From NCBI GenBank assembly GCA_015233015.1, contig JADFYO010000031.1, positions 1-40,529 on the forward strand: a stretch of 40,529 nucleotides of DNA. Direction: 5' to 3'. Below are positions 5,687 through 30,334 of this stretch, piece by piece. A program made the translations under genes and the position numbers. How positions within the stretch are numbered: position 1 is the stretch's first letter; every line of letters begins with the position of its first letter. The stretch is from Nitrospirota bacterium. Lineage in GTDB: Bacteria; Nitrospirota; Thermodesulfovibrionia; Thermodesulfovibrionales; Magnetobacteriaceae. The notes under the pieces are model-generated. The model had not been told where the DNA came from and ran no database searches. It saw only the letters and a list, made by a program, of their open reading frames with translations.

Positions 5687-6058
5687 CTATATTCCTTGAA
5701 TTTTGATCAGAGCCTCTTCGACGGTGGCCTTAACCGGAGGTTTTTTCAGAATCGAAGAGATCCCTAACGCGGTAACCTTTTCTGCTGTCTTTGCCTGAAT
5801 ATCTGCTGTCAGGACAATTATAGCTGCCTTAGGGTCAAATGCCTTTATCAATTCGATTGCCTCGAACCCGTTCATCACAGGCATTGTCAAATCCATAAAT
5901 GTTACATCGGGGCGGTAATTCTTATAAGCCTCCACCGCCTTTGCCCCATCGCTGGCCTCAAAGAATTCATAGCCCTTGTCCTTTGGGATACACCCTTTGA
6001 TAAAAAACCGGGCAGATGTTGAATCATCCACTATCAGTATCTTTTTTATTGTAATCAT
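5687..6058 (-). CDS. Single-domain response regulator (CheY-like)
   Basis: A 123-residue stand-alone receiver. The acidic pocket D11/D12, the phospho-acceptor D56 (FMDLTMP), T84 (VLTAD) and the Lys pair at 105-106 followed by PP are all in place, so phosphorylation should be possible. There is no output domain. The ATG at 6058 has GAGGGAT a few bases upstream. It is the first gene of an operon with a CheC-like phosphatase and a PAS-GGDEF protein. The kinase is not in the window. Confidence 0.92.
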   Translation of the reverse strand: MITIKKILIVDDSTSARFFIKGCIPKDKGYEFFEASDGAKAVEAYKNYRPDVTFMDLTMPVMNGFEAIELIKAFDPKAAIIVLTADIQAKTAEKVTALGISSILKKPPVKATVEEALIKIQGI

Positions 6059-6108
6059 TTCTAATCCCTCTTTTGAAATTCTTTGGCAAATTTTTCTGGC
6101 GTATGTTC

Positions 6109-6123
6109 GAGATTATTAATCTC
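6109..6123. promoter_or_regulatory. Palindrome GAGATTA-T-TAATCTC upstream of the receiver operon
   Basis: A perfect 7-bp inverted repeat around one central base lies about 50 bp upstream of the receiver start codon and about 100 bp upstream of the divergent TPR promoter. This is a plausible dimeric operator. No regulator can be named. Confidence 0.4.
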
Positions 6124-6160
6124 TAAAACCACCCTTCGTACTCTAAGACCACCTTTTGTG
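6121..6160. repeat. Two 20-bp tandem repeats in a divergent intergenic region
   Basis: CTCTAAAACCACCCTTCGTA (6121-6140) is followed directly by CTCTAAGACCACCTTTTGTG (6141-6160), 16 of 20 bases identical. It lies between the receiver operon and the TPR gene and could be a tandem binding site. Confidence 0.45.
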
Positions 6161-6220
6161 CTGCTCTCTGATGGGAAAATAACATTAACTCATTAATAAT
6201 GTCAATATGTACTACGATTC

Positions 6221-6250
6221 TTGCCGTCAATCCTGTGAAAATTATATAAT
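6221..6250 (+). promoter_or_regulatory. Promoter of the TPR gene
   Basis: TTGCCG at 6221-6226 and a perfect TATAAT at 6245-6250, spacer 18 bp. The predicted transcript start near 6257 leaves a leader of roughly 16 bases containing the GGAGGG ribosome site. Confidence 0.6.
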
Positions 6251-6272
6251 AAAAGGATGGAGGGAATGTCGG

Positions 6273-6920
6273 ATGAATTGCTCTGTTTTTAAACTCAGTG
6301 CCGTTACTCTTGTCTTGTTGCTGGTTGTTTTTTTACCTTTACAGTCATTCGGCGAAAATGCGGCAGAGTCGTATTTCAGCCGTGCAACAAAGTATATGGA
6401 AAAAGGGGCTTACGACAAGGCCATTGTCAATTTCACCAAGGCATTGAAGATTAACCCAAACTTAGCCGAGGCGTACTACAACCTTGGGCTTATATACGGT
6501 AAAGAAAAGCATGACTTTGACAACGCAATCGCCGGCTTTAGCAGGGCGATACAGATTAACCCCGGATATGCGGAGGCGCATAATAACCTGGGACAGGCAT
6601 ACCTGATAGGGAAACACGACTATGACAAGGCAATAGCGGAGTATTCCGAGGCGGTAAAGATTAACCCAAATTATGCCGAGGCATACTATAACAGGGGGGT
6701 TGCTTATTATGAAGGTAAACATGACAATGACAAGGCGGTGAACGAGTATTCCGAGGCGATAAAGATTAACCCGAATTTTGCGGCGGCGTACTACAACAGG
6801 GGTATTGTGCTGATGAGTATAGGCGACAAGGCAAGTGGATGCCGCGATATTAACCACGCCTGCGAACTGGGGATGTGCCAGTATGCCCAATACGCAAAAT
6901 CTACGGGTGATTGCAAATAG
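6273..6920 (+). CDS. Exported TPR-repeat protein
   Basis: A 215-residue protein starting at 6273, preceded by GGAGGG with an 8-base spacer; an upstream in-frame ATG (6207) lies before the promoter and is rejected. A hydrophobic signal peptide (VTLVLLLVVFLPLQSFGEN) is followed by four to five TPR units of about 35 residues with very regular consensus (YDKAIxxFxxAIKINPNxAEAYYNLG). Several units carry the extra string GKHDYDKAI or GKHDNDKAV, so the repeats arose by recent internal duplication. A Cys-containing tail (GCRDINHACELGMC) closes the protein, a form seen in Sel1/TPR lipoprotein-like proteins. It is probably a periplasmic protein-interaction scaffold with no assigned partner. Confidence 0.85.
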   Translation: MNCSVFKLSAVTLVLLLVVFLPLQSFGENAAESYFSRATKYMEKGAYDKAIVNFTKALKINPNLAEAYYNLGLIYGKEKHDFDNAIAGFSRAIQINPGYAEAHNNLGQAYLIGKHDYDKAIAEYSEAVKINPNYAEAYYNRGVAYYEGKHDNDKAVNEYSEAIKINPNFAAAYYNRGIVLMSIGDKASGCRDINHACELGMCQYAQYAKSTGDCK

Positions 6921-6921
6921 T

Positions 6922-7821
6922 TTATTCCTTCCCCAGGAATACCTTCAACTCGTCCAATGAACCGGCTTTCCTGATAAGGTTTTTGAGTGCCTCAAGTTTA
7001 TCGACGTTATCGACAGCTTTGACCATGCCCATAATCTCAAGCCCGGCTGAACCAAATTTGAGTTCAAGGCCTAACTCTACCGCCTCAATCAATCCTTCAT
7101 ATTTCCCCTTCTCACGCCCCTCAGTTATGCCGCGTTCACGACCCTCGGTTATGCCGCGTTCACGACCCTGCCTGAATCTTACATCCCTTTCTAAATCATA
7201 TACTAATGCCATTGCCTCAGCCTCCTTAGACACTTCGTCCTGCAAGTCCCTCAACTGTGACAGGACTTCCACCTGCCTTACATATTTGCCCCGGAGTGTT
7301 TCCTCCGGCACCAGTTCCTTTAATCGATTTAGTATCTCCCGTACAAATATTTTAACACCTTTCTGCCGATAATTGCACAAGATTGAGATTATCACCTCTT
7401 CCGGGATGTCCGAGTATAAAAATTTCTCGCAGTCAATGTCGCGCATATCGATTAGATTATATTTATGGGTCGTTGTCTTTGTTGAAATGCTGTCTTTCAT
7501 CGTAAGCGGCTCGTTACCGATATAAAACACGTATTGCATAGGCATAATTCCATGGACTTCGGTCAGATAAACCCAGTATCGCAGCTCCCTGTAAACCATT
7601 TTTGAATAGTTTGTTGACTGAAACTCGATATGAAGCAGGGAACTGGAACCATCGCCCATCTCAACCAATAAAATAAAATCGGCCTCGCGTTCGTTAGTTA
7701 TCTGAAGTTTAGTCTCTATCGCCGTGGATTTGACAATATCCAGCCCTATTACCTCTGTTATCAGGGTATCGACGACATCTTTCAGGATTTCTTTTATGAT
7801 CTTGTCGTAAGGTTTAGACAT
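6922..7821 (-). CDS. Rpn/PD-(D/E)XK nuclease-family protein
   Basis: A roughly 299-residue protein from the ATG at 7821 (MSKPYDKIIKEIL); a GTG at 7884 would extend it by 21 residues into the neighbouring gene. It matches the recombination-promoting nuclease / YhgA-like group: an N-terminal PD-(D/E)XK fold with EADFILLVEM and HIEFQ as core strands, and a charged helical C-terminus. The C-terminal region contains RERGITEG twice in tandem, encoded by a 24-bp DNA repeat, as is typical of this family. Members are DNA endonucleases of mobile character and are often present in many copies. There is no partner gene of known function; the upstream membrane-protein gene is on the same strand. Confidence 0.75.
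   Translation of the reverse strand: MSKPYDKIIKEILKDVVDTLITEVIGLDIVKSTAIETKLQITNEREADFILLVEMGDGSSSLLHIEFQSTNYSKMVYRELRYWVYLTEVHGIMPMQYVFYIGNEPLTMKDSISTKTTTHKYNLIDMRDIDCEKFLYSDIPEEVIISILCNYRQKGVKIFVREILNRLKELVPEETLRGKYVRQVEVLSQLRDLQDEVSKEAEAMALVYDLERDVRFRQGRERGITEGRERGITEGREKGKYEGLIEAVELGLELKFGSAGLEIMGMVKAVDNVDKLEALKNLIRKAGSLDELKVFLGKE
7113..7169. repeat. 24-bp tandem repeat inside the Rpn-type gene
   Basis: Two full 24-bp units (7113-7136 and 7137-7160) and a 9-bp partial third unit encode the RERGITEG repeats. The units differ at two bases. Copy number may vary between strains because the repeat keeps the reading frame. Confidence 0.85.
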
Positions 7822-14723: not shown

Positions 14724-17700
14724 TTATCTCCATCTTACCCCTAAAGCATACGAAGTGCCATTATAATAAGAATACATATAGCCGTCTGTCCACGCTACAA
14801 GGGCGGCGCCATTCGAATACCATTGGATATAGTATGTGGCTGAACCCGATGTTCCCGCAGATATGCTTCCTGATGTCGACCCAAACCACGAGGCATATTG
14901 ACTGTAGATGGAGCTAATCTTTGAGGCTGCATAACCAAAGGTTTTCCATGTTATACCTAAGCTGTACAACTGGCCGTTATAATATGTATACATATTTCCA
15001 TCTGTCCCGGCTACAAGGTAAGCGCCGTTGGTATATAATTGGTAATAGGCTATCCAGGATGTTCCCGTCTGAATGCCCCCGGATGTTGACCCAAACCACG
15101 AGACATATTGACTATAAATTGCATTAAATGCCGCAGAGGCTGCGTCGCTGTCCGGCATGATTGATGACGTAAACGCTGCGGTTACACTTTTAGCCGAGAC
15201 AAGCGTAACGGTACATTGAGAACCACTTGTCGAATCACACCCGCTCCAGCTTGAAAACGTATAGCCTGAAGCCGCAGCTGCCGTCAGGGTTACTGCTGTG
15301 CCGGAGGCGTATGTGGCAGAACATGCAGAGCCACAGCTGATTCCAGATGGTGAGCTTGTTACTGTACCGCTTCCGGTTTTGCTCACACTCAGCGTATAAG
15401 AAGAGCTTGACGATGAAAATACCGCAGATACAGACTTATTAGAGACAAGCGCAACGGTACATTGAGAACCACTTGTCGAATCACACCCGCTCCAGCTTGA
15501 AAACGTATAGCCTGAAGCCGGAGTTGCCGTCAGGGTTACAGACGTGCCGGAGGCGTATGTGGCAGAACATGCAGAGCCACAGCTGATGCCCGATGGTGAG
15601 CTTGTTATTGTGCCGCTTCCGGATTTACTCACACTCAGCGTATAAGAAATTGACGACGAAAACTGTAATTTTGCTATGAAAACATCATAGGTACCTTTCA
15701 GCGTTGTCTGATAGGCGCCGGTTGTCGCAGGGAAATCTGATGAGGTTGTATATCCGGTCACATAGGCGTCGCCTGAGGAATCTATCGCTATGCCGGCGCC
15801 TAAATCACCATGACTGCTGTTGCTGCCGCCAAGTAAGGTAGAATAAACAAGGGCTGTGCCGGTGGAGTTCAGTTTTGTTATGAAAACATTGCTGGCTCCT
15901 TTCAGAGTAGTCTGATAGGCGCCGGTTGTCGTAGGAAAATCTGATGAGACTGCATATCCGGTGACATAGGCATTACCTGAGGAATCTACCGCTATGCCGC
16001 TGCCGTCATCCGAACTATTGCCGGCAAGAAAGGTAGAATAAACAAGGGCAGAGCCGGTGGAGTTCAGTTTTGTTATAAAAACACCAGACAGCCCTTTCAG
16101 AGCAGTCTGATAGGCGCCAGCTGTCGTAGGAAAATCTGTTGAGTACGCATCTCCGGTGACATAGGAGTTGCCTGAGGCATCTACCGCTATGCTAGTGCCA
16201 TAGGCAGCTTTAGTACCGCCTAGATAAGTAGAGTACACAAGGGCGGTACCGGTGGAGTTCAGTTTTGTTATAAAAGCATTACCGTATGAAAAAACAGTAC
16301 CGAACGCAGTGTAAGTGGCATTCATGGTAGTCTGATAGGCGCCGGTTGTTACAGGAAAATCTGTCGAGTACGCCTGTCCGGTGACATAGGCGTTGCCTGA
16401 GGAATCTACCGCTATGCCATAGCCATAATCACGATCTCTACCGCCAAGAAAAGTAGAGTACGCAAGGGCAGTGCCGGCGGCGTTTAGTTTTGCTACAAAA
16501 ACATCATAGTCTCCTCCTACAGTCGTCTGAAAGGCGCCGCTTGTTACAGGGAAATCTGTTGATCGTGTATATCCGGTCACATAGGCGTTGCCTGAGGAAT
16601 CTACCGCTATGCCATAGCCACCGTCATAGCCATTCCCGCCAAGGTACGTAGAGTAAACTAGGGCAGTGCCGGTAGAGTTTAATTTTGTTATAAAAACATC
16701 ACAGACTCCTTTCATCGTGGTCTGATAGGCTCCGGCTGTGGGAAAATCTGTCGAGTATGTTTCTCCGGTCACGTAGGCGTTGCCGGCGGAATCTACCGCT
16801 ATGCTACGGCCAATATCACCACTAGCGCTACTGCCGCCAAGGTACGTAGAGTAAACAAGGGCAGTGCCGGCGGAGTTTAGTTTTGTTATAAAAAGATTAG
16901 AGGTTCCCTTAATAGTAGTCTGAACGGCGCCGGTTGTTACAGGAAAATCTGTTGAGGTTGTAAATCCGGTCACATAGGCATTGCCTTGGGAATCTACTGC
17001 TATGCTACGGCCAAAATCACCGCTACTCCCGCTGCTGCTACCGCCAAGAAAAGTAGAGTATGCAAGAGTAGGGTCAATAACCAATGCCTTATTCCTGTCA
17101 TATCCCGCCACATTAAAGCTAACCAGATTGTCTTTGCCAACATGATATTTGCCTTTAATTTCCTTTTTGACACCATCTATTTCCTGATAGACGAGGGGTT
17201 TGTGCATGAGCATCTTACCGCCCTTTGCAGCGATTATCAGGTTACCGTCTTTATCAACCTTTAGTGTTTTCACCCCATCGATCTTGAGGGCAATTTGATT
17301 ATAATCGGCATTAGGCGCTACGACGAAATCGTATTCTATCTGCCGCTGATTGCCGTAAACCACCAGATCGACGCCGGGATATACCTTCTCGTATTTCACT
17401 TTTTTGTATGTCGGCACATTAGTACGCCATTTCTCCGGGTCATTTCCTATGAAGTAGCTGGATTTCCCCGGAAGTTCGTCAATGCCGGCTATCGATTTAG
17501 CGTCTGTGTCAGGATTGACAAATTTAATACGAATGGAGGCCGTTTTTATCTTAGCTTTCGCTCGCTGTTTCTTGTCAGGAGTTGTCATTGACAGAACAAA
17601 CTCCTGCCGGGTCATGAAAAGCGTATAGCCTTGTCCTCTGGCAAAATATTTGACTTCAGGGTCTGTCTGCCCATCGTTTGCCTCAAAGGCAATCGGCAGT

Positions 17701-17840
17701 TTCCCGTATGACTCGGCAATCCGGGCATTATCCTCAGCGGCCACACCCGCCGGGACATTCGCATATGCTAAAGCGCCTAGGCAAAAACCCGTTACTAATA
17801 AAGTCACGATTGAGGCTACTATTTTTCTTATACTTATCAT
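14724..17840 (-). CDS. Large secreted SBBP beta-propeller protein with C-terminal repeats
   Basis: A 1038-residue exported protein. A signal peptide (VTLLVTGFCLGALAYA) is followed by the N-terminal domain often seen with these propellers (residues about 35-265). Seven SBBP repeats of about 65 residues follow (core SIAVDSSGNAYVTGYTxSTDFP), enough for one seven-bladed propeller. Two nearly identical bacterial-repeat domains of about 76 residues follow (YTLSVSKSGSGTITSSPSG; Cys pairs GISCGSAC). The last 140 residues are two copies of a Tyr/Ser/Gly-rich unit (IYSQYASWFGSTSG, TDGYMYSYYNG) that I do not recognise. AAGGAGG precedes the ATG at 17840. It is probably a cell-surface or extracellular matrix protein. 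The tRNA-Ala gene is 58 bp upstream on the same strand. Confidence 0.88.
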   Translation of the reverse strand: MISIRKIVASIVTLLVTGFCLGALAYANVPAGVAAEDNARIAESYGKLPIAFEANDGQTDPEVKYFARGQGYTLFMTRQEFVLSMTTPDKKQRAKAKIKTASIRIKFVNPDTDAKSIAGIDELPGKSSYFIGNDPEKWRTNVPTYKKVKYEKVYPGVDLVVYGNQRQIEYDFVVAPNADYNQIALKIDGVKTLKVDKDGNLIIAAKGGKMLMHKPLVYQEIDGVKKEIKGKYHVGKDNLVSFNVAGYDRNKALVIDPTLAYSTFLGGSSSGSSGDFGRSIAVDSQGNAYVTGFTTSTDFPVTTGAVQTTIKGTSNLFITKLNSAGTALVYSTYLGGSSASGDIGRSIAVDSAGNAYVTGETYSTDFPTAGAYQTTMKGVCDVFITKLNSTGTALVYSTYLGGNGYDGGYGIAVDSSGNAYVTGYTRSTDFPVTSGAFQTTVGGDYDVFVAKLNAAGTALAYSTFLGGRDRDYGYGIAVDSSGNAYVTGQAYSTDFPVTTGAYQTTMNATYTAFGTVFSYGNAFITKLNSTGTALVYSTYLGGTKAAYGTSIAVDASGNSYVTGDAYSTDFPTTAGAYQTALKGLSGVFITKLNSTGSALVYSTFLAGNSSDDGSGIAVDSSGNAYVTGYAVSSDFPTTTGAYQTTLKGASNVFITKLNSTGTALVYSTLLGGSNSSHGDLGAGIAIDSSGDAYVTGYTTSSDFPATTGAYQTTLKGTYDVFIAKLQFSSSISYTLSVSKSGSGTITSSPSGISCGSACSATYASGTSVTLTATPASGYTFSSWSGCDSTSGSQCTVALVSNKSVSAVFSSSSSSYTLSVSKTGSGTVTSSPSGISCGSACSATYASGTAVTLTAAAASGYTFSSWSGCDSTSGSQCTVTLVSAKSVTAAFTSSIMPDSDAASAAFNAIYSQYVSWFGSTSGGIQTGTSWIAYYQLYTNGAYLVAGTDGNMYTYYNGQLYSLGITWKTFGYAASKISSIYSQYASWFGSTSGSISAGTSGSATYYIQWYSNGAALVAWTDGYMYSYYNGTSYALGVRWR
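15165..15650. repeat. Two near-identical tandem copies of a ~240-bp coding unit
   Basis: The DNA of the two bacterial-repeat domains is almost the same, including the long shared stretch around CACTTGTCGAATCACACCCG at 15226 and 15466. The spacing is 240 bp. This indicates recent duplication or gene conversion and a likely weak point for assembly. Confidence 0.8.
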
Positions 17841-21086: not shown

Positions 21087-21116
21087 TTGACAACATAGCT
21101 ATATATTTAGTATATT
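21087..21116 (+). promoter_or_regulatory. Promoter of the tandem secreted-protein genes
   Basis: TTGACA at 21087-21092 and TATATT at 21111-21116 with an 18-bp spacer, in an AT-rich stretch. The start of transcription would be near 21123, about 54 bases ahead of the ATG at 21177, which has GAAGGAGG upstream. Confidence 0.6.
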
Positions 21117-21176: not shown

Positions 21177-21707
21177 ATGAAGAAGAGTTTGATATTAATT
21201 TTGGCAGTCTGTATGTTAATTGCCATGAGCGGCCCGGCCATTGTCGAAGGGTCAACAAACGTTTACTATTACATGCCATATCTAACGACGGTAAGCGGGG
21301 CTGAAGTTTACTGTATGGCGTCGAACTTTTCAACGGATGACGTTACATCCACCACATTTGCAGTTATGGCAAGCGCTGTAAGCCAGGCGCCGCAAACGGC
21401 GAGGACATTCCCCACTATTAATAACATCGCAAAAGGCAGGACACAACAGATAAGTTTTATAGGCCAGACTGTAACTGTGGACGGTACTACTCAGGTCGTT
21501 GATCTGTCCTCAGATACCGGAACGAACAGCTCGTATGGCGGTACGCTTCATTTTTCGTCAACCGGCTCAACCGGCATCAATTGTAAGACATTGTTGATGA
21601 CCTGTTTTCAGGGAAACACCTCTCCGAAGCGCAATTTAGTGGGATATATTTGCGAGGACGACAGCACCTCCGGCCCGGGAAACACCAAAAATGTCATAGG
21701 CTATTAA
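21177..21707 (+). CDS. Secreted protein, family shared with the next gene
   Basis: A 176-residue protein with a signal peptide (ILILAVCMLIAMSGPAIVEG). The mature 155 residues are paralogous to the C-terminal third of the next protein: both have a YYMPYLTT/YSFPYMHT start, a Cys after VY (GAEVYCMASNFSTD), a RTQQISF/RTAQLVF segment and the end CFQGNTSPKRNLVGYIC. Three further Cys (CK, TCF, YIC) could form disulfides. I do not recognise the domain. GAAGGAGG precedes the ATG. The protein is likely exported and could be a surface or envelope component. Confidence 0.75.
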   Translation: MKKSLILILAVCMLIAMSGPAIVEGSTNVYYYMPYLTTVSGAEVYCMASNFSTDDVTSTTFAVMASAVSQAPQTARTFPTINNIAKGRTQQISFIGQTVTVDGTTQVVDLSSDTGTNSSYGGTLHFSSTGSTGINCKTLLMTCFQGNTSPKRNLVGYICEDDSTSGPGNTKNVIGY

Positions 21708-21731
21708 CTGCCCGATTGAGGTAATTGACAA

Positions 21732-22841
21732 GTGAAAAAGAGACTATTTCTGTTAGTAAAACTTGTGGCAGTGTCTGCGTTTGCCGTCATGATTCCTGTT
21801 TACGCGATGGCCGTTACTACTTACTCTGTTTATATAACAAAGGCAGGGACTGGTGGAGGCACCGTAACTCCCTCCATAGGCACGATTACCTGGATGGGTG
21901 TTGCAGGGGTAACGACCGATAACGCAACAAAGGCCGATAACAGTACAAACACCGTCTATTTTTATGTGACGCCGAGCTTGGGGTCGACATATTTGAGCTG
22001 GTCGGGCTGCAATTCCGTATCAGACAATGGGACATGCACTCTTTCTCTGGCTTCTGATAATCAGAGCCTGACAGTGTATTTCGGCGGCACAAGCACCTAT
22101 ACCCTTACGGTTAAAAAGACAGGATTTGGCTCGGGAACGATAGTTCCCTCTTCCAGCACTCTTACATGGGACAACACCAGCACTACAGGCACGGCCGTTT
22201 ATAACTCCAACCAGACGGTTGCTTTGTACCAAACGCCGGGTTCGATATCGAGATTTTCATACTGGGTAGGCTGCGACAGTGTCTCAGACAACGGCACATG
22301 TTCTATAGCTATGAAATCAAATGTGACCGTTACGGCCAGATTTTCAGGTTATCATAATGTTACTTACAGCTTCCCTTATATGCACACGGCACCTGGTGCG
22401 ATCGTTTATTGTATAGTATCGAATTTTTCTACTGATAACGCCACAGGAGACGGTCTTACCATTATGAGCAGCGCTCAGCAGAGCGTATCCCAGACACTTC
22501 ATGAGCTGCCATCCGCCTTCAGAATTAACAGAGGCAGAACAGCGCAGCTCGTCTTTAATAATCAACTGGTTGCCATCAAAAACGATAACCTGACGGTGTT
22601 CAATATAGGAGACAACAACAGTGTCAACATTGCAGCCGATACCTGTGCCAATTGCTCTTATGGGGCAAAAATCAGCTGGACGTCTAATCTGGCTGCGATG
22701 ACCTCCGGGGTTGATTGTCTGAGTTTATTGATGAGTTGTTTTCAGGGCACTACGGTTCCCAAGCGCAATCTGGTTGGCTATATTTGTTCTGACGACAGTA
22801 CAAACGGCCCGGGCGGCCGGGGAAATCTAATCGGTTTTTAG
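21732..22841 (+). CDS. Secreted protein with two repeat domains and the same C-terminal domain
   Basis: A 369-residue exported protein starting at a GTG (21732) with TGAGGT about ten bases upstream. A signal peptide is followed by two bacterial-repeat domains of about 85 residues with paired Cys (SGCNSVSDNGTC and VGCDSVSDNGTC), of the type also found in the SBBP protein. The last 150 residues repeat the domain of the upstream gene (ending CFQGTTVPKRNLVGYICSDD). It is thus a paralogue that gained N-terminal modules. It is 24 bp from the upstream gene and probably in one transcript. Its stop is 4 bp from the stop of the convergent PLD-like gene, with no terminator between them. Confidence 0.78.
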   Translation: MKKRLFLLVKLVAVSAFAVMIPVYAMAVTTYSVYITKAGTGGGTVTPSIGTITWMGVAGVTTDNATKADNSTNTVYFYVTPSLGSTYLSWSGCNSVSDNGTCTLSLASDNQSLTVYFGGTSTYTLTVKKTGFGSGTIVPSSSTLTWDNTSTTGTAVYNSNQTVALYQTPGSISRFSYWVGCDSVSDNGTCSIAMKSNVTVTARFSGYHNVTYSFPYMHTAPGAIVYCIVSNFSTDNATGDGLTIMSSAQQSVSQTLHELPSAFRINRGRTAQLVFNNQLVAIKNDNLTVFNIGDNNSVNIAADTCANCSYGAKISWTSNLAAMTSGVDCLSLLMSCFQGTTVPKRNLVGYICSDDSTNGPGGRGNLIGF

Positions 22842-22845
22842 CCGC

Positions 22846-24462
22846 TTATTCGTGACCAGTCCTGAAGGATTCACATATCTTATTTGCCTCTGTCATGAAG
22901 TCCCAGGCAACCCTTCCATCCCTTGTAACCGAAAGCACTTCGTCTGAGTGTATGCTCGCCTGGTACCAGTTGTATGATTCCGTTATGACTGTGTAGTTGT
23001 CAAAAACCGCAAACTTATGGTGCAGGGGCGAGTAAATGCTCTCATGGTAATAGACGAAAACAAGGTCCATCCAATTATCTTTGAGCCGCTGCGCTGGTTC
23101 CTTCAGCGGACGCCACTTGCTTTTATCCCATGTTTCAGGCAGCGCCCCTGTATGGGCTATCATTCCATTTAGGATAATTTTCACCTGGACGCCCCTGTTG
23201 CGGGCGGTAATAAGGGCTGACACGACATCTGTTTCGTGATGGTCATAAGAGGATACGCCGGCCAGCCATCCTATGTCGAACATGGATACGACTATCGAGT
23301 GTTTGGCATTGTTTATCTCGGTTATTATCACATCCTGCGGACGATAGTAATCTCTGAAGTGGGTGTAATAGCTGCCGAAAGTATAGTAAAGATTGTATCT
23401 GCTTTCGGGAGTTACTTCTATTCTTTGAATGACGCCGCCCTTTATCGCGCAATAGATATTGGAGTAGAGCGTGGCAAACTCCCTCGAGTAATAGACGAGA
23501 CCGTTTTCCCAGTTGCCGCCCCAGAGGTGAAAGTGCAAGTTATATGAACTTGAGTGGACGACCTCGCCGTCGAAAATTATGAATTTCGTATGCATACTGG
23601 CTATGCCATAGGACGGGTCGCTGGGGTTGTTTCTTACTATGCCGCAAATGGCAATGCCGGCGCGCCTCATTTTCGCGATGTTTTCTGTGGCGTTCATCGG
23701 ACTTACCGCCGACCACTCGGCATAGACCTCAACCTCCACCCCCTTATTCTTCGCGTGAATCAGGTGTTGCGCAACATGGTAGTTGTCCGGGTCAAATATG
23801 GCCATATGAATATAGTGGCGGCCGCTCATGTCCTCTTCTTTTCGTTTTATTACCCAGTCGATGTGCCTGTGCAGTTCGTGAATGGGGTGGTCATCGCTCC
23901 ATGTGTTTCCTCTGGTAAAGTAGGGCCTTATGGGAAGGTGTTCATAGTCGAAATTAATCCTGTTAAGGGCATTTTGCACGTCCTGCCGATTAAGTTCACA
24001 GGTCTGATACGTGTTAATGGTATTAAAATCAGGGGCGTTAAAGTCGCCTATGTCAATATAGCCCCTGTGGAAATCATCGAGTACGGCGAATTTGTAATCA
24101 TACTGAGAGGGAATCGACACGCCGTCTTTGTGGATTACATAGGAGAACTTTATATGAGTAATTCGTCCGTGCAGCCCCTCGTAAGGGAAAAGAGGGAGTT
24201 GATTGGTCTGCCATTTTTGCCAATTGTCGCCCCAGTGGCCGCAATGGTCGGCGTTCATTAAGTAATACTCCACGGCATTGTCTTCTCTGAAGACTTTAAG
24301 CACAACGCGAAGTGCCTTGTCGGCAGCGTAATCCTCGAAGGCAAACCCTATGCCGCCGGGAAAGTTTGAGATCTTCCAGTTTTGAGCATTGTTAACAAAA
24401 CGCCTCCCTCCAATCCATTTATAGCTTGGGTGGCAGTACTGTTCCGCAAATACCTTTTCCAT
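22846..24462 (-). CDS. Phospholipase-D-like protein with two HKD motifs
   Basis: A 538-residue protein. Residues about 200-540 form a bilobed PLD superfamily domain with two HxK(x4)D motifs: H291/K293/D298 (HTKFIIFD) followed by SSSYN, and H481/K483/D488 (HHKFAVFD) followed by ESYNW. Both lobes look catalytically complete. Residues 1-180 are an extra beta-rich domain with many aromatics (ADHCGHWGDNWQKW) that resembles a carbohydrate-binding fold only by its appearance. No signal peptide is seen. The substrate could be nucleic acid or phospholipid. It is the last gene of a three-gene operon, two bases after the Fic gene. Confidence 0.85.
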   Translation of the reverse strand: MEKVFAEQYCHPSYKWIGGRRFVNNAQNWKISNFPGGIGFAFEDYAADKALRVVLKVFREDNAVEYYLMNADHCGHWGDNWQKWQTNQLPLFPYEGLHGRITHIKFSYVIHKDGVSIPSQYDYKFAVLDDFHRGYIDIGDFNAPDFNTINTYQTCELNRQDVQNALNRINFDYEHLPIRPYFTRGNTWSDDHPIHELHRHIDWVIKRKEEDMSGRHYIHMAIFDPDNYHVAQHLIHAKNKGVEVEVYAEWSAVSPMNATENIAKMRRAGIAICGIVRNNPSDPSYGIASMHTKFIIFDGEVVHSSSYNLHFHLWGGNWENGLVYYSREFATLYSNIYCAIKGGVIQRIEVTPESRYNLYYTFGSYYTHFRDYYRPQDVIITEINNAKHSIVVSMFDIGWLAGVSSYDHHETDVVSALITARNRGVQVKIILNGMIAHTGALPETWDKSKWRPLKEPAQRLKDNWMDLVFVYYHESIYSPLHHKFAVFDNYTVITESYNWYQASIHSDEVLSVTRDGRVAWDFMTEANKICESFRTGHE

Positions 24463-24464
24463 AT

Positions 24465-26087
24465 CTATCTTTGTATCATATATGAGTAATTTAAACCCTT
24501 GTTATTGTGGATATAACCACCTTCGTGGGATACCACACAACAGTTAAAATAGTCGCAGTCATAGTGGTATTTGTGCAGTTCGATGGAGAAGTCTATATCG
24601 AATGCCCTTGCGCCGCCTATATCCGACGGTATCTCTTTTATAAAAAAGCTGTGTTTGATATTAAATACGTGTTCCCAATCGCCGCGTTCCACTTTTGAAA
24701 ATCCACAGTAAACCGTCATATTATACAGGTAGTGTTCACTGGGAAACACGACCATACACCTGTCGTGAATGCTGCTGAAGAGCAGGTCGTCTCCTTCCAC
24801 TATATAAGCGTTAAAGTGTACTTCCAGCCTTTGCGGCCTGTCGTCGATTTGGCGGAAATAAAACCCCGAGTCAAAGGACACGTTATATATCTGCTTTTCC
24901 AGGAAACCGAGATGCTCCAGTTTCCACCTTTCATAAAAGTATGCCTCTACGGCGATATTTATCCTGTTCCTGACATAATCGTACATGTCTTCAATCGAAC
25001 CGCCATAGCGAGGCAGGGCCAATACCTCCTCGTCCTGGGAAAAACTTATCGGCGGGATACCTTTTTTTAGCAGCATATAGTTCAGAAAACACTTGCCGAC
25101 GCGTCCGTTAGAATCCCAAAAAGGGTGAATGGCGATGAACATGTAATATGAACGGGACAGGTCAAAAATAAAGGTATTCAGGGTATGAAAGCTCTGGCTG
25201 GTTTCCCATACCACATGCCCGAGGTCCTTGATTTCTCTGTCGAAGTTGCCGTTATCGAACGTAACGCCATTTTTATCGGGAAAATCGAACGGCCTGAAAC
25301 TCCCCGCGTTAGGTACGGTGTCCCTGGACATTGTCAGATGGATCTTTTTTAACAGATCAAGACCGATCTCGGTATAGGCATGAAGGGAGGAGAATGTCTC
25401 ATTGTACATTTCTAAGAAGTTTTTATTTCCAATGACTTTTAATTCCTGGGGGGAAAGCGCATCCTCATGCCCGACCGTGCCTTTCATTATGGTCATAGAA
25501 GAGCACCCCAGATGCAGGAACAACTTCTGAAATATTGCCGTATTGACGTTCCACGCGGTCTCCTCGCTCATTATTTTAAAATACTGCTTCAGGTCAAGCC
25601 GTATGGGATGTGTTACGACAGGCGTGTCCTCATCCGCGTTCCGGCCAAGGATAGCACAGAGCTGCCGTATTATTTGGGCAGAGTTCATTGCCGCAGCGTC
25701 TTCACTGGAAAAATCTGTAAACTCTTTTACCTTCGCTGAGTATTTATCAAATCTCTCTGCAAGCAGCAGGTATAAATGTTCCGCATGGTCATGTTTTAAG
25801 GTGCCAAGGGCGCTTAACAAATCTATGTTTACGCCGTATCCCCTATAGCCTAAGGCATTGATGACATCGCATTTCCTGTCGATTTCCGCAATGGTACGGT
25901 CATAGAGTGCCTTGTTGTAGTGCCATTTCATATAGTAGTAGAGGAGATTTTCTGTGTCGTAGGCTTCCTGATACTCCAGTTCGCCAAGTTCACGCAGTAT
26001 ATGTTGAAAGTTCCCATTTAACTTATCGAAGATTGCCTGACAGTGGTTGTCCCACTGATATGCTAAGACAAAAGATACTGGCGGCAT
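24465..26087 (-). CDS. Large Fic-domain protein
   Basis: A 540-residue protein with a Fic fold. The active-site loop reads HPFWDSNGRVGK at 321-332. The canonical form is HPFxxGNGRxxR, so H321, the acidic residue, N327, G328 and R329 are kept while the first Gly is Ser and the last Arg is Lys. H, N and R at the ATP site suggest it can still transfer a nucleotide or similar group to a protein, but activity is not certain. No clear inhibitory SxxxE(G/N) helix was found by eye. The N-terminal 250 residues and the C-terminal 150 residues (beta-rich, from YNVSFDSGFYF) are unrecognised. It lies between the EEP gene (44-bp gap) and the PLD-like gene (2-bp gap). Confidence 0.85.
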   Translation of the reverse strand: MPPVSFVLAYQWDNHCQAIFDKLNGNFQHILRELGELEYQEAYDTENLLYYYMKWHYNKALYDRTIAEIDRKCDVINALGYRGYGVNIDLLSALGTLKHDHAEHLYLLLAERFDKYSAKVKEFTDFSSEDAAAMNSAQIIRQLCAILGRNADEDTPVVTHPIRLDLKQYFKIMSEETAWNVNTAIFQKLFLHLGCSSMTIMKGTVGHEDALSPQELKVIGNKNFLEMYNETFSSLHAYTEIGLDLLKKIHLTMSRDTVPNAGSFRPFDFPDKNGVTFDNGNFDREIKDLGHVVWETSQSFHTLNTFIFDLSRSYYMFIAIHPFWDSNGRVGKCFLNYMLLKKGIPPISFSQDEEVLALPRYGGSIEDMYDYVRNRINIAVEAYFYERWKLEHLGFLEKQIYNVSFDSGFYFRQIDDRPQRLEVHFNAYIVEGDDLLFSSIHDRCMVVFPSEHYLYNMTVYCGFSKVERGDWEHVFNIKHSFFIKEIPSDIGGARAFDIDFSIELHKYHYDCDYFNCCVVSHEGGYIHNNKGLNYSYMIQR

Positions 26088-26131
26088 GTTATCGTACCTC
26101 GCGCTTTATATGTATGTTATTTATATGTATA

Positions 26132-27649
26132 TTATTCGATGACGGCATAGACCCCTATATGGTCGCTGAGAGATGGAGCTTTGAGAATAAGCTCCGCACG
26201 GTGAATTCTTACGCCGCCCCTGACCATTATATAATCAATTCTGGTAAAAGGATTTGCCGAGCTGAACGAGTTCCCACCGGTTTTATGGCATGACCTGTAG
26301 GCATCCATATATCCCTGCTCTTTGAGATATGATATGACAAGCGAGTCCTCGACATCGTTAAAGTCGCCCGCTATTATGGTGCAGTAAGCGCCGTTGCCAT
26401 AAATGGCATCGAGAGATTTCAGCAGTTTCTCCGCCTGAGCCAAGCGAACCTTTGGGTTTTCGCTGTGGTCGAGATGAAGGGAGGCAAAGACAAATCTGCG
26501 TCCATAGATTTCGACCTCGGCGGCGGCCGCAAAACGCTCCATCAGGGGACAAAGCCCCTCGGTAAGGCCCTTATTTAAGTCAATCGTCTGAGGATTTTTC
26601 ATGGCATACCTTGACGACACCGCCACCCCCTCCGGATACTTATCCATAAACAGGTGGCAGTAGCTGTAGTGGGTTCTATAGTAGTAGCCCGTTGTCTTTG
26701 TCATTAACACGGCAATTTGGGCGCTTGTTTCCTCAATCCCCGCACCGTTTATGACCTCCTGATAGCAGCAGATCTCAGGGTCGTTGGCGCTCAGTTCACC
26801 GGCTATTTGTCTGAAACGCTGCGCGTCGTTTGTGCCGTGGGTGCCGTGGAGATTGAACGAGCAGACGCGCACTACCGTTGGATTTAAGGCGCGGTATTTC
26901 TGAAAATCTTCTTCCGTTAATATGCCTGTTGTGGCATTTTTCGTGAATCTGTCGTTAATCCTGTAAACATACTCCTTTATGCAGTTATACTCTTTTGCGA
27001 TGGTCTCGGCGGGCGCTCCGGCCCTCAGAAGTCCGATCATCTCGAGACGCCGCAAAACGGGGTCTTCCATGTTCATATTATCTAACCAGTGCCTGATGTT
27101 CGACCCGGAGAGAATGCCATATACACCGTTATGGGAGAACGCCGAATGTACCCTGTAAAGGTATTGCACGTCAGTATGTAAATCTGCGGCAATTTTCTCC
27201 GGCGGCACCCCTGTTCTCAGAAGTCTGACCATCTCGAGGCGTCTGAGGACATCGTCGTTGCTGCTGAGTATATCTATCCATTTAGCTCCTGCGAGTTCTT
27301 TGTCCAGTTCGACGCCCACACCCTGAGCGCTCATGGCTATCCACATATCGCTTAATTCATTCGCCAGTACATCGTCACCTTCAATAACCTTTCTCAGCTG
27401 AAGACGAAAAGACGCCTGAGCGTCCGGGTCGAAGGGTAAGTCGGCTGCGTCCTGCATAGCCTCTTTCAGGGATTGCCGCTGTTTAAGTTTGGGCTTGATT
27501 TTGTCCATGATGGCCTTTGCCCACATAAGGGCTTGCTCATCTGCGGATATGGCCGCAGGTGCGTCTTTCTCTGCTTGCGGCTGAAGCAGGTTCGGTATAA
27601 AAGGCATAAGAAAGCCGGAGATACCGTATAATAAAGTTCTGATGTCCAA
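26132..27649 (-). CDS. Endonuclease/exonuclease/phosphatase protein with helical repeat region
   Basis: A 505-residue protein. The first 22 residues are hydrophobic (LLYGISGFLMPFIPNLL), then a helical domain follows (ADEQALMWAKAIMDKIKPKL) that resembles the all-helical N-terminal modules of bacterial conflict proteins. Residues about 140-270 hold two copies of a roughly 63-residue helix-turn-helix-like unit (VLRRLEMVRLLRTGVP and VLRRLEMIGLLRAGAP). Residues about 275-505 are an EEP domain with QEV, HLDHS, GDFND (428-432), IDYIM and SDHIGV ending at H497. The start is a TTG behind AAGAGGG. It begins the EEP-Fic-PLD operon. Known EEP proteins cut DNA, phosphoinositides or sphingomyelin; the substrate here is open. 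Confidence 0.83.
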   Translation of the reverse strand: MDIRTLLYGISGFLMPFIPNLLQPQAEKDAPAAISADEQALMWAKAIMDKIKPKLKQRQSLKEAMQDAADLPFDPDAQASFRLQLRKVIEGDDVLANELSDMWIAMSAQGVGVELDKELAGAKWIDILSSNDDVLRRLEMVRLLRTGVPPEKIAADLHTDVQYLYRVHSAFSHNGVYGILSGSNIRHWLDNMNMEDPVLRRLEMIGLLRAGAPAETIAKEYNCIKEYVYRINDRFTKNATTGILTEEDFQKYRALNPTVVRVCSFNLHGTHGTNDAQRFRQIAGELSANDPEICCYQEVINGAGIEETSAQIAVLMTKTTGYYYRTHYSYCHLFMDKYPEGVAVSSRYAMKNPQTIDLNKGLTEGLCPLMERFAAAAEVEIYGRRFVFASLHLDHSENPKVRLAQAEKLLKSLDAIYGNGAYCTIIAGDFNDVEDSLVISYLKEQGYMDAYRSCHKTGGNSFSSANPFTRIDYIMVRGGVRIHRAELILKAPSLSDHIGVYAVIE

Positions 27650-28414: not shown

Positions 28415-30334
28415 ATGACGGAATCTGAAAAACATACAAATATAACTGAATTAACCCATATTATTGTTATATGTATGCTTGGTGCTATTGCATATCACAA
28501 TACCTTAGGCGTACCTTTTACCCTTGACGATTTCAGTAATATTGTAGAATGTAAAGAGATAAGGAATCTTAATGATTTTATTAGTTTAAAACTGCTCACC
28601 CATGGAGAATACGGTTTCAGGGCAAGATTCGTTGGATATTTTACGTTTGCTCTTAATTATTGGTTCAGCGGGCTTAACGTGAGGAGTTATCATGTCGTTA
28701 ATATTTTAATACATATTATCAATGCGTTTCTTATTTACAGGATGATTCTTTTGATACCAAAAACTCCGTTTTTTGCGGATTTTACCAAACATCAATCAAT
28801 AAGAACGCTGGCATTTTTAGCCTCCGCTTTTTTTGTAGTCCATCCGGTTCAGACCCAGTCGGTAACGTATCTGGTCCAAAGGTTCGAGGCCCTTGCAACA
28901 ACTTTTTATTTAGTTTCCATAATTTTTTTCATAAAATTAGGAACGAGTTCAGGGAGAACCCGTATTTTTTATTTCATTACCTGCTTCATATCGACTGCAC
29001 TATCTATGAAAACGAAGGAAGTAGCCCTTACCATACCAATGATGATGCTGATGATGGAGTTTTTATTTTTTACCCCTGTGAAACGTAAGAACAGATTAAT
29101 CGTTCTTTTGCCAATCCTCTTATTGATCCTATTAATTCCACTGGCAGTAGTACATGGAGATATAAAGCAGTTACCAAATTCATATAATATTGTCAATAAT
29201 GACATGTCCACTTTCCAACGAGTTGACGACGAAGACATGTCCGGTTCCCAACGCGTTGACGATGAAAACGCATCGAATGCACCAAGTTCAAACAGAAAGG
29301 TTAAGGCTGTCAAGTCGTCTCATTACACTTACACTATATCTCAGTTTGCCGTTATGCTGACTTACTTAAGGATATTATTTTTCCCATTACATCAGAACCT
29401 GGATTACGATTATCCCATGTATATCAGTTTTTTACGGTTTAAGGTGTTAGCAGGCGCCCTCACTGTTATGGCCATAATTTCAATTGCGGTTTATTTCATC
29501 TATCGTTCGGGAAAACATAACGGAACTGCTAAATATTACCAAAGACTGTTCAGCTTAGGAGTAATTTGGTATTTCATTACTCTTTTAGTTCAGTCTGGTT
29601 TAGTATCCATAGCCGACCTGATATTTGAACACAGGCTGTATCTGCCGTCTATAGGCTTTTTTATAGCCTTGTTTGCATTATTGGAATTATTTATGATAAA
29701 TAAGCCCATTTTTTCAAAAATAAGAAAGGAGGCTTTGTTTGCAGTCCCGATTGTGATTTTATGTATTTTAACTATTCAAAGAAACAAAGTATGGCAAAGC
29801 AATATAACTTTGTGGGAAGACACCGCAAAAAAGAGTCCTAATAAATGGAGATGCGGGTTCCTTTTAAGCAAGGCATACGCTGACGCGGGAAGAATTGACG
29901 ACGCCATTGCCGAATTACGGCGAACCATTATGGTTGCGCCCCTGAGGCACCAGTCTTATAATAATCTTGCAAATCTTTATATGGCAACCCGTCAGTATGA
30001 CAAATCGCTTATAATTTTTGAACAGTTAGTACAAATTAAACCCTGGTCGCCAGAGGTGCATAATAACTTGGGCGTTGCTTACTTATTAACAAATCAGAAT
30101 GAAAATGCAATAGAAGAATTTAAAAAGGCATTACAAATAAAATCTGATTATGTCGCGGCGTATAATAATCTTGCCATCGCCTACCATAACCTTAAAAAAG
30201 ATAAGCACGCTCAGGTTATAACCGAGAGGGCTATTTCTGTAAACAAAGACACTGCAGAACCAGATGAAAACATCCAGGTACTTAAAAATAACTTACAGAT
30301 GATTAAGCCAAACGATAATACAACCACTCGTTAG
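28415..30334 (+). CDS. Polytopic membrane protein with C-terminal TPRs (TMTC/GT-C-like)
   Basis: A 639-residue protein. About ten membrane helices fill residues 15-455, with strings usual in TMTC-like or PMT-related proteins (YHVVNILIHIINAFLIY, FFVVHPVQTQSVTYL). Residues about 470-630 hold four TPRs (VHNNLGVAYLLTNQNENAI). Relatives are thought to be O-mannosyl- or other dolichol/polyprenol-linked glycosyltransferases, but this is not proven for bacterial forms. A hydrophilic loop near residues 255-300 contains an 11-residue tandem repeat (DMSxxQRVDDE). The gene is AT-rich compared with its neighbours and stands on the opposite strand between mogA and the MOSC gene. The start ATG at 28415 has only a weak ribosome site. 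Confidence 0.82.
   Translation: MTESEKHTNITELTHIIVICMLGAIAYHNTLGVPFTLDDFSNIVECKEIRNLNDFISLKLLTHGEYGFRARFVGYFTFALNYWFSGLNVRSYHVVNILIHIINAFLIYRMILLIPKTPFFADFTKHQSIRTLAFLASAFFVVHPVQTQSVTYLVQRFEALATTFYLVSIIFFIKLGTSSGRTRIFYFITCFISTALSMKTKEVALTIPMMMLMMEFLFFTPVKRKNRLIVLLPILLLILLIPLAVVHGDIKQLPNSYNIVNNDMSTFQRVDDEDMSGSQRVDDENASNAPSSNRKVKAVKSSHYTYTISQFAVMLTYLRILFFPLHQNLDYDYPMYISFLRFKVLAGALTVMAIISIAVYFIYRSGKHNGTAKYYQRLFSLGVIWYFITLLVQSGLVSIADLIFEHRLYLPSIGFFIALFALLELFMINKPIFSKIRKEALFAVPIVILCILTIQRNKVWQSNITLWEDTAKKSPNKWRCGFLLSKAYADAGRIDDAIAELRRTIMVAPLRHQSYNNLANLYMATRQYDKSLIIFEQLVQIKPWSPEVHNNLGVAYLLTNQNENAIEEFKKALQIKSDYVAAYNNLAIAYHNLKKDKHAQVITERAISVNKDTAEPDENIQVLKNNLQMIKPNDNTTTR
29201..29266. repeat. 33-bp tandem duplication in the membrane-TPR gene
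   Basis: Two units, 29201-29233 and 29234-29266, each begin GACATGTCC and end GACGA(C/T)GAA. They encode DMSTFQRVDDE and DMSGSQRVDDE in a hydrophilic loop. Confidence 0.9.

Follow-up and report, generated by a model that had tools for sequence, protein, structure and literature searches.

The two neighbouring genes at positions 21177-22841 of the window (the whole stretch of 40,529 nucleotides analysed here) encode proteins with a common C-terminal domain, which was found in 18 of 19 searched genomes of a single bacterial family, the Magnetobacteriaceae. We propose, with about even confidence, that this domain is the C-terminal part of surface-coat proteins that make up a family spanning the lineage. 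They would be exported by a type II secretion system (T2SS), and the modular members would display cargo. Export, location and assembly are what we infer.

The first gene (21177..21707, plus strand, ATG start) is an open reading frame (ORF) for a putatively exported protein of 176 aa, called the solo copy (domain profile match, E 2.3e-54). Judged by eye, its residues 1-25 (21177..21251, plus strand) are a putative Sec-type signal sequence with lysines followed by a hydrophobic stretch. The shared C-terminal domain, a predicted beta-sandwich, occupies positions 21252..21704 (plus strand), as seen from the alignments A1, A3 and A4 and an AlphaFold2 (AF2) model. Its conserved cysteines are residues 46, 136, 143 and 159 of the solo product (P0001). 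After a gap of 24 nt follows the gene of the modular copy (21732..22841, plus strand, GTG start; identified as ORF and by BLASTP). It encodes a putatively exported protein of 369 aa, which by eye also appears to start with a Sec-like signal sequence. Two repeat modules with 42% identity to each other (21810..22091 and 22089..22352, both plus strand) precede the shared C-terminal domain (22350..22838, plus strand; profile E 1.0e-52), which carries two additional cysteines in this copy. The second module is a divergent InlB B-repeat (PF18998) and passes the Pfam cut-off with 23.8 against 23.6 bits. The first module alone gave no Pfam match and is linked to InlB only by its identity to the second. 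In a BLASTP comparison of both products 73 of 168 residues are identical (43%, E 1e-43), and the match covers the C-terminal part of the modular product. The initial annotation had given the coordinates of both ORFs correctly. Its common part of about 150 residues with conserved cysteines, of which there are four, was borne out, as was the presence of one solo copy beside one with two repeat modules. It had also placed a shared motif at the end of both proteins. The motifs CFQGNTSPKRNLVGYIC and CFQGTTVPKRNLVGYIC are indeed present, but they do not form the very end. In each protein 17 residues follow, the last of which is Tyr or Phe.

The pair is flanked by pgi and a PLD-like gene, both of which lie on the opposite strand. 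A promoter-like site (TTGACA-18-TATATT; 21087..21116, plus strand), which is a consensus match only and agrees at 11 of 12 positions, ends 60 nt 5' of the first ATG. No such site was found between the two genes. Transcription from one promoter, as claimed originally, is plausible on these grounds, but the region contains 8 promoter-like sites compared to 3.7 (sd 2.1) in shuffled sequences, so that several of them are due to chance. Several other genes of the window were recorded. On the minus strand (window 22846-27649) an odd cluster of PLD-like, Fic/DOC, HTH and endonuclease/exonuclease/phosphatase genes is located, which is perhaps defence-related. A protein of 1038 aa with DUF7948 and an SBBP propeller (window 14724-17840) contains two InlB B-repeats without the shared domain and carries another short repeat twice at its end. 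A protein with TPR repeats is encoded at window 28415-30334. It looks similar to proteins encoded after the T2SS-linked solo genes in several genomes, which we take to be TMTC-type glycosyltransferases.

The profile search with the shared domain, which had been proposed as a check, revealed a lineage-wide family. The source genome (G000; 3.78 Mb, 99% complete), which by kinship falls into the genus Ca. Magnetominusculus, gave 14 matches, which represent 13 copies, as two matches are the halves of one frame-broken copy. Nine copies are solo, essentially the domain alone, and four are modular. Since the same domain occurs in 13 copies of this genome, a chance likeness of the two window proteins is excluded. 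Their designation as tandem paralogues fits insofar as two copies are adjacent, but these are only 2 of the 13 copies and do not stem from a local duplication. Alignment A1 comprises 12 of the 13 copies, with the split copy on contig C121 omitted, and A2 contains six of these. In total, 18 of 40 searched genomes (the source genome and relatives) carry the domain and all belong to one family. Within this family 18 of 19 genomes have it, with 1 to 44 matches each, G010 being the sole one without, and it is absent from the 21 searched genomes of other families. A sample of 295 genomes of the phylum gave 10 matching genomes, nine of the family and one weak match elsewhere. With two peptide patterns, 41 relatives at 38 loci were found in the GTDB contig collection, all from Nitrospirae, Ca. 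Magnetominusculus or Ca. Magnetobacterium. The organisms with the domain include Ca. Magnetominusculus xianensis HCH-1, Ca. Magnetominusculus sp. LBB02 and Ca. Magnetobacterium casense MYR-1. The group which bears it takes in magnet-sensing species, which does not necessarily apply to every genome. A scan of viral contigs with the solo copy gave no relative.

The domain is C-terminal in all 83 near-full-length copies, with at most 62 residues after the aligned domain; this count refers to copies extracted from the fetched loci and not to every match of every genome. Its N-terminal partners are unrelated propellers and repeats, or there are none. Alignment A4 contains 82 of the 83 extracted domains, while the 33 rows of A3 are made up of 31 of 32 domains from named contigs and the two from the window. 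L095, which is cut at its 5' end, was omitted from both. Of the 82 domains of A4, 81 contain four cysteines and 80 have a C-terminal Tyr (67), Phe (9) or His (4). Two copies are broken between reading frames (G000:C121 at about 6495-6970, L013 and L014, and L062 at 5899-6518), which could be decay or an assembly error. The stretch G008:C11:62000-81900 (L185) carries a same-strand run of eight domain genes, a single solo gene and seven longer ones, of which one is cut by the end of the stretch. A gene for a FecR-domain protein is interspersed among them. Six of the long proteins begin alike, and the one that was scanned has BNR repeats.

A tree of the 82 domains was used to judge the age of the pair. 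The window solo copy falls into a clade of 9 rows (97/87) together with solo copies of G002, G005, G006, the MAG MYbin6 and four genomes of genus g3. The modular copy belongs to a clade of 10 rows (94/92, just under the star of the tool), which contains modular members of pairs from both genera and one row cut at its 5' end (L064). Both clades are sisters (96/92). As each of them spans two genera, the pair was inherited rather than formed in a recent local event and is older than the split of the two genera. A duplication followed by module gain, as suggested before, agrees with the sister position of the clades, but the split is old and the tree accommodates loss of modules as well as gain. 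With labels on 78 of the 82 rows, at least nine changes between the solo and the modular state are required. Cruder labels gave 11 changes, and this number dropped to 9 when the four cut or borderline rows were left without a label. On contigs C77 and C55 of the source genome the domain follows an SBBP propeller and an NHL-type propeller, respectively, and the DNA of the two domains shows 92% identity over 479 nt. This alignment spans the domain start to the stop codon, and farther downstream only separate matches of 42 and 27 nt occur. The DNA match and the number of changes on the tree point to cassette-like copying of the domain.

For the two window products nothing significant except the repeats was detected in Pfam. 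The 82 family members of A4 match 20 Pfam families in all at E <= 1, and no family was matched by more than 3 of the 82. The best single match was DUF5719 (E 6e-4, one of 82 domains), possibly a further distant link. NCBIfam and PDB, searched by sequence or profile, gave nothing below E 0.1. A match of the shared domain to a known pilin, adhesin or enzyme family, which would have spoken against its novelty, was not found in Pfam, NCBIfam or the PDB sequences. The domain is thus undescribed with regard to its sequence, since no family in these three collections covers it, whereas the extracellular location claimed for it we infer. AlphaFold2 predicted an all-beta fold for the solo domain (33 sequences; mean pLDDT 93.4, pTM 0.88). 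For the whole modular protein (6 sequences) the C-terminal domain was modelled poorly (mean pLDDT 56.7, positions 180-343 under 50), and the repeat part alone reached block means of 65-93. The four cysteines would form two disulphides, with C46-C143 and C136-C159 as predicted pairs in the solo copy. A distant branch of the family (A5, four sequences) has two cysteines only, which correspond by motif to the first and the third. This suggests a 1-3 and 2-4 pairing as the most likely one.

The links to type II secretion and to Slr4-type proteins come from DNA outside the window. The link to secretion was found on contig C117 of the source genome, where two solo copies come after a T2SS operon. 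Pfam identified T2SSK, T2SSM_b and Secretin as well as a pseudopilin-type N-methylation motif in this operon; the remaining gsp names were read from sequence and gene order. At E < 1e-150 the gspD subfamily was detected in 16 of the 19 family genomes and in none of the 21 outside. In 13 of 15 testable genomes the next same-strand ORF (>= 90 aa) 3' of gspD is a domain gene. G017 was left out of the 15, as its contig stops 78 nt past the gspD match, and G011 and G015 have no domain gene after gspD. In G000, G003 and G004 a small ORF of 90-165 aa on the opposite strand separates gspD from the domain gene or overlaps, and these ORFs were taken as spurious. Among the loci selected for the domain, all 21 with gspD have a domain gene as the next same-strand ORF; they come from 14 genomes, several of which are seen twice, and were chosen for the domain. 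G010 (92% complete) lacks both the domain and the family gspD, and in G001 (84% complete) and G002 (75% complete) the domain is present and the family gspD was not found. A secretin with 30-31% identity occurs in 2 of the 21 genomes outside the family. Five genomes of the family possess a second secretin (29-31% identical), including the source genome (G000:C85:9102-10958, 29%), so that there are other routes besides the C117 system. The window pair has no adjoining T2SS genes. As 48 of 69 loci gave no T2SS hit, most copies are not located beside T2SS genes.

Weak profile matches led to longer proteins with the same C-terminal element in G012 and G299, which represent the distant branch. In hhalign, family and branch matched with E 1.3e-10 and a probability of 96.9. 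In the reverse genome search the branch profile recovered the window solo copy at E 4.4e-8 and matched 13 of 395 genomes of the phylum, namely 11 of the family, G251 and G299. The branch domain of L127 alone matches the Slr4 model (PF19526; E 2.9e-8, 33.8 bits, cut-off 25) at model positions 258-344 of 370. The branch proteins L114 and L121 gave E 1e-12 and 2.7e-18. When isolated, the domains of L127 and L114 were above the cut-off and that of L121 just below it (24.3 bits against 25). No Slr4 match was detected in the window pair or in 82 scanned family members. The kinship of the window family to Slr4 would be distant and transitive through the branch of long proteins. Slr4 itself occurs in 1 of 19 genomes of the family, so the window family is not simply found beside classical Slr4. 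L114 (G012:C93), a long Slr4-like protein, has an internal hydrophobic segment like a sorting tail, and we take the gene beside it to be exosortase-like. With the help of a knockout and electron microscopy, Slr4 has been demonstrated to be an S-layer protein in Pseudoalteromonas tunicata. The slr4 gene is located immediately downstream of a T2SS operon (PMC7821379).

If the proteins form such a coat, each of them would cross the inner membrane by Sec, fold into the beta-sandwich in the periplasm, held by two disulphides, and exit the cell via the T2SS peculiar to this bacterial family. Outside, the domain would assemble on the cell surface into an S-layer-like or matrix coat. The solo copies would be plain coat subunits, and in the modular copies propellers or InlB-type repeats would be held in the coat by the same domain. 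Against this, Slr4 has about 59 kDa, and a solo subunit of 150 aa would be small for a lattice.

The domain might instead be a module of the ASRT/ASRAH kind that binds sugars outside the cell and tethers exported proteins to a surface polysaccharide or glycan without a protein lattice; we regard this as somewhat unlikely. In the VIA comparison the best solved fold was TM1070 (1nc7, ASRT family; Z 8.6, rmsd 3.2, 106 aligned), with 5.9 for the next row and galectin-type and SPRY domains in many of the following rows. A Z of 8.6 is little above 7 to 8, which the tool note gives as the typical best for models with no clear match, and absence of a family from the VIA list is no evidence against that family. 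Foldseek with the domain model against the PDB gave nothing at E <= 1e-3. For ASRAH domains, which bind sugars as the authors argue, two hallmarks are given (PMC2739507): strand 2 ends with an invariant Asn, and a Trp stands where strand 1 starts. The Asn is present: all 33 rows of A3 have N25, all 82 rows of A4 have the equivalent N28, and model strand 19-25 ends at domain N25. By contrast, none of the 33 A3 rows shows the strand-1 Trp or the ASRT signature SHEshChhN. The distant branch A5 has an invariant Trp, and some copies of the source genome have a Trp two residues ahead of a conserved Pro, a place unlike that of the ASRAH Trp. PF07100 did not match the window pair and was not among the Pfam families hit by members of A4 at E <= 1. 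In hhalign against 13 ASRT sequences (A6, 13 of 16 ASRT loci) the family was not significant (P 0.064 and 0.082) and the branch borderline (P 0.0016, probability 16). The best solved fold, which is like that of ASRT, a predicted sugar binder, would speak for binding no less than for a lattice.

The position of solo copies next to T2SS genes, the occurrence of one domain on several unrelated N-terminal modules and the cassette-like copying would also fit a domain which is mainly a T2SS export tag, with proteins released to the medium and modules that do the work. This is quite unlikely, because 9 of the 13 copies in the source genome are essentially the domain alone, which makes the domain itself a product and not only a tag. 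Its distant relationship with a coat protein likewise argues against this reading. In our view the solo and modular pair also resembles a pilin and a two-domain adhesin. A pilus or fimbria of chaperone-usher style, with solo copies as shaft and modular copies as tip adhesins, would agree with the common C-terminal beta domain of such pairs and its conserved C-terminal aromatic residue. The usher search rejects it: PF00577 occurs in 0 of 19 genomes of the family, the source genome included, and the E. coli control was positive. Moreover, the isolated domain is predicted with high confidence over its whole length, so there is no sign of a missing strand, and we consider such a pilus highly improbable.

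Apart from the surface coat, which we prefer, the sequences give a hint of glycosylation. The motif D-N-x-S/T occurs 195 times in 102 distinct domain proteins compared to 19.6 in shuffles, 76 times in 342 neighbouring control proteins (47.6 in shuffles) and 27 times in 14 GspD proteins (3.4 in shuffles). After D-N, x-S/T follows in 195 of 233 cases in the domain proteins and in 76 of 474 in the controls. In the domain alignment the motif is found at 12 columns, with 107 D-N-x-S/T against 10 D-N that lack S/T, or 37 against 10 when the three commonest columns are removed; homologous sites inflate these counts. The 195 sites are encoded by 139 different 12-mers, so the excess does not derive from one DNA repeat. 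The excess in the N-terminal modules is due to a single cluster, which consists of orthologues of the longer window protein. In the other 12 module clusters, one protein each, x-S/T follows 1 of 7 DN. The window solo copy has no D-N-x-S/T site. With the protein of a genus relative as query, which matches Pfam STT3 and the PglB core, a PglB/STT3-like enzyme was found in 16 of the 19 family genomes, including the source genome, while the Pfam STT3 search gave 12 of 19 and missed the latter. The PglB/STT3-like oligosaccharyltransferase of the source genome (L218, G000:C116:80711-82897) has 727 aa, is 76% identical to that of the genus relative and contains the motifs WWDFG and DTDSLN. PglB of Campylobacter prefers an acidic residue at -2, and others are relaxed (PMC4894442). 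An Asp at -1 of a glycosylation site would be unusual. Together, the PglB-like enzyme and the enriched motif may hint at glycosylation of the domain proteins.

Combining these points, Magnetobacteriaceae might possess a surface display in which one disulphide-stapled domain is both coat subunit and graft for cargo, exported by one family-specific T2SS in up to 44 copies per genome and N-glycosylated at D-N-x-S/T via the PglB-like enzyme. We consider the combination as a whole unlikely. If true, it would be unlike known C-terminal sorting. The literature found says little about the outer surface of magnetotactic Nitrospirota, and concrete targets for surface proteomics and imaging are provided by a single domain family that reaches 44 matches in a genome and is linked to an export operon. 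If the coat itself exists, Slr4-type coats exported by T2SS would reach beyond Gammaproteobacteria, and a natural modular display domain for type II secretion would be at hand.

Compared with known systems, the likeness to the divergent InlB B-repeat (PF18998) is limited to the N-terminal modules of the longer protein; it is accessory and says nothing of the shared domain. ASRT/ASRAH domains (PF07100; TM1070) have the Asn at the end of strand 2 in common with the window family, the predicted fold of which is likewise an all-beta sandwich with TM1070 as the best solved match. Unlike them, the window family is putatively exported and bears cysteines, and it shows no significant sequence match, no ligand signature and, in A3, no strand-1 Trp. 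C-terminal sorting domains (T9SS CTD, PEP-CTERM, GlyGly-CTERM) presumably are similar in that one C-terminal element is found on unrelated exported proteins. In contrast to these, the shared domain is predicted to be fully folded and also stands alone, and the two products have no NCBIfam match. Slr4 of Pseudoalteromonas and other marine Gammaproteobacteria is similar in two respects. The distant branch matches its model, and the position of its gene directly downstream of a T2SS operon is that of the T2SS-linked paralogues here (13 of 15 testable genomes), though not that of the window pair. The window family differs from Slr4 by the lack of a direct match and by a second cysteine pair, which the four branch domains of A5 do not have, and its members often stand alone and occur in multiple copies.
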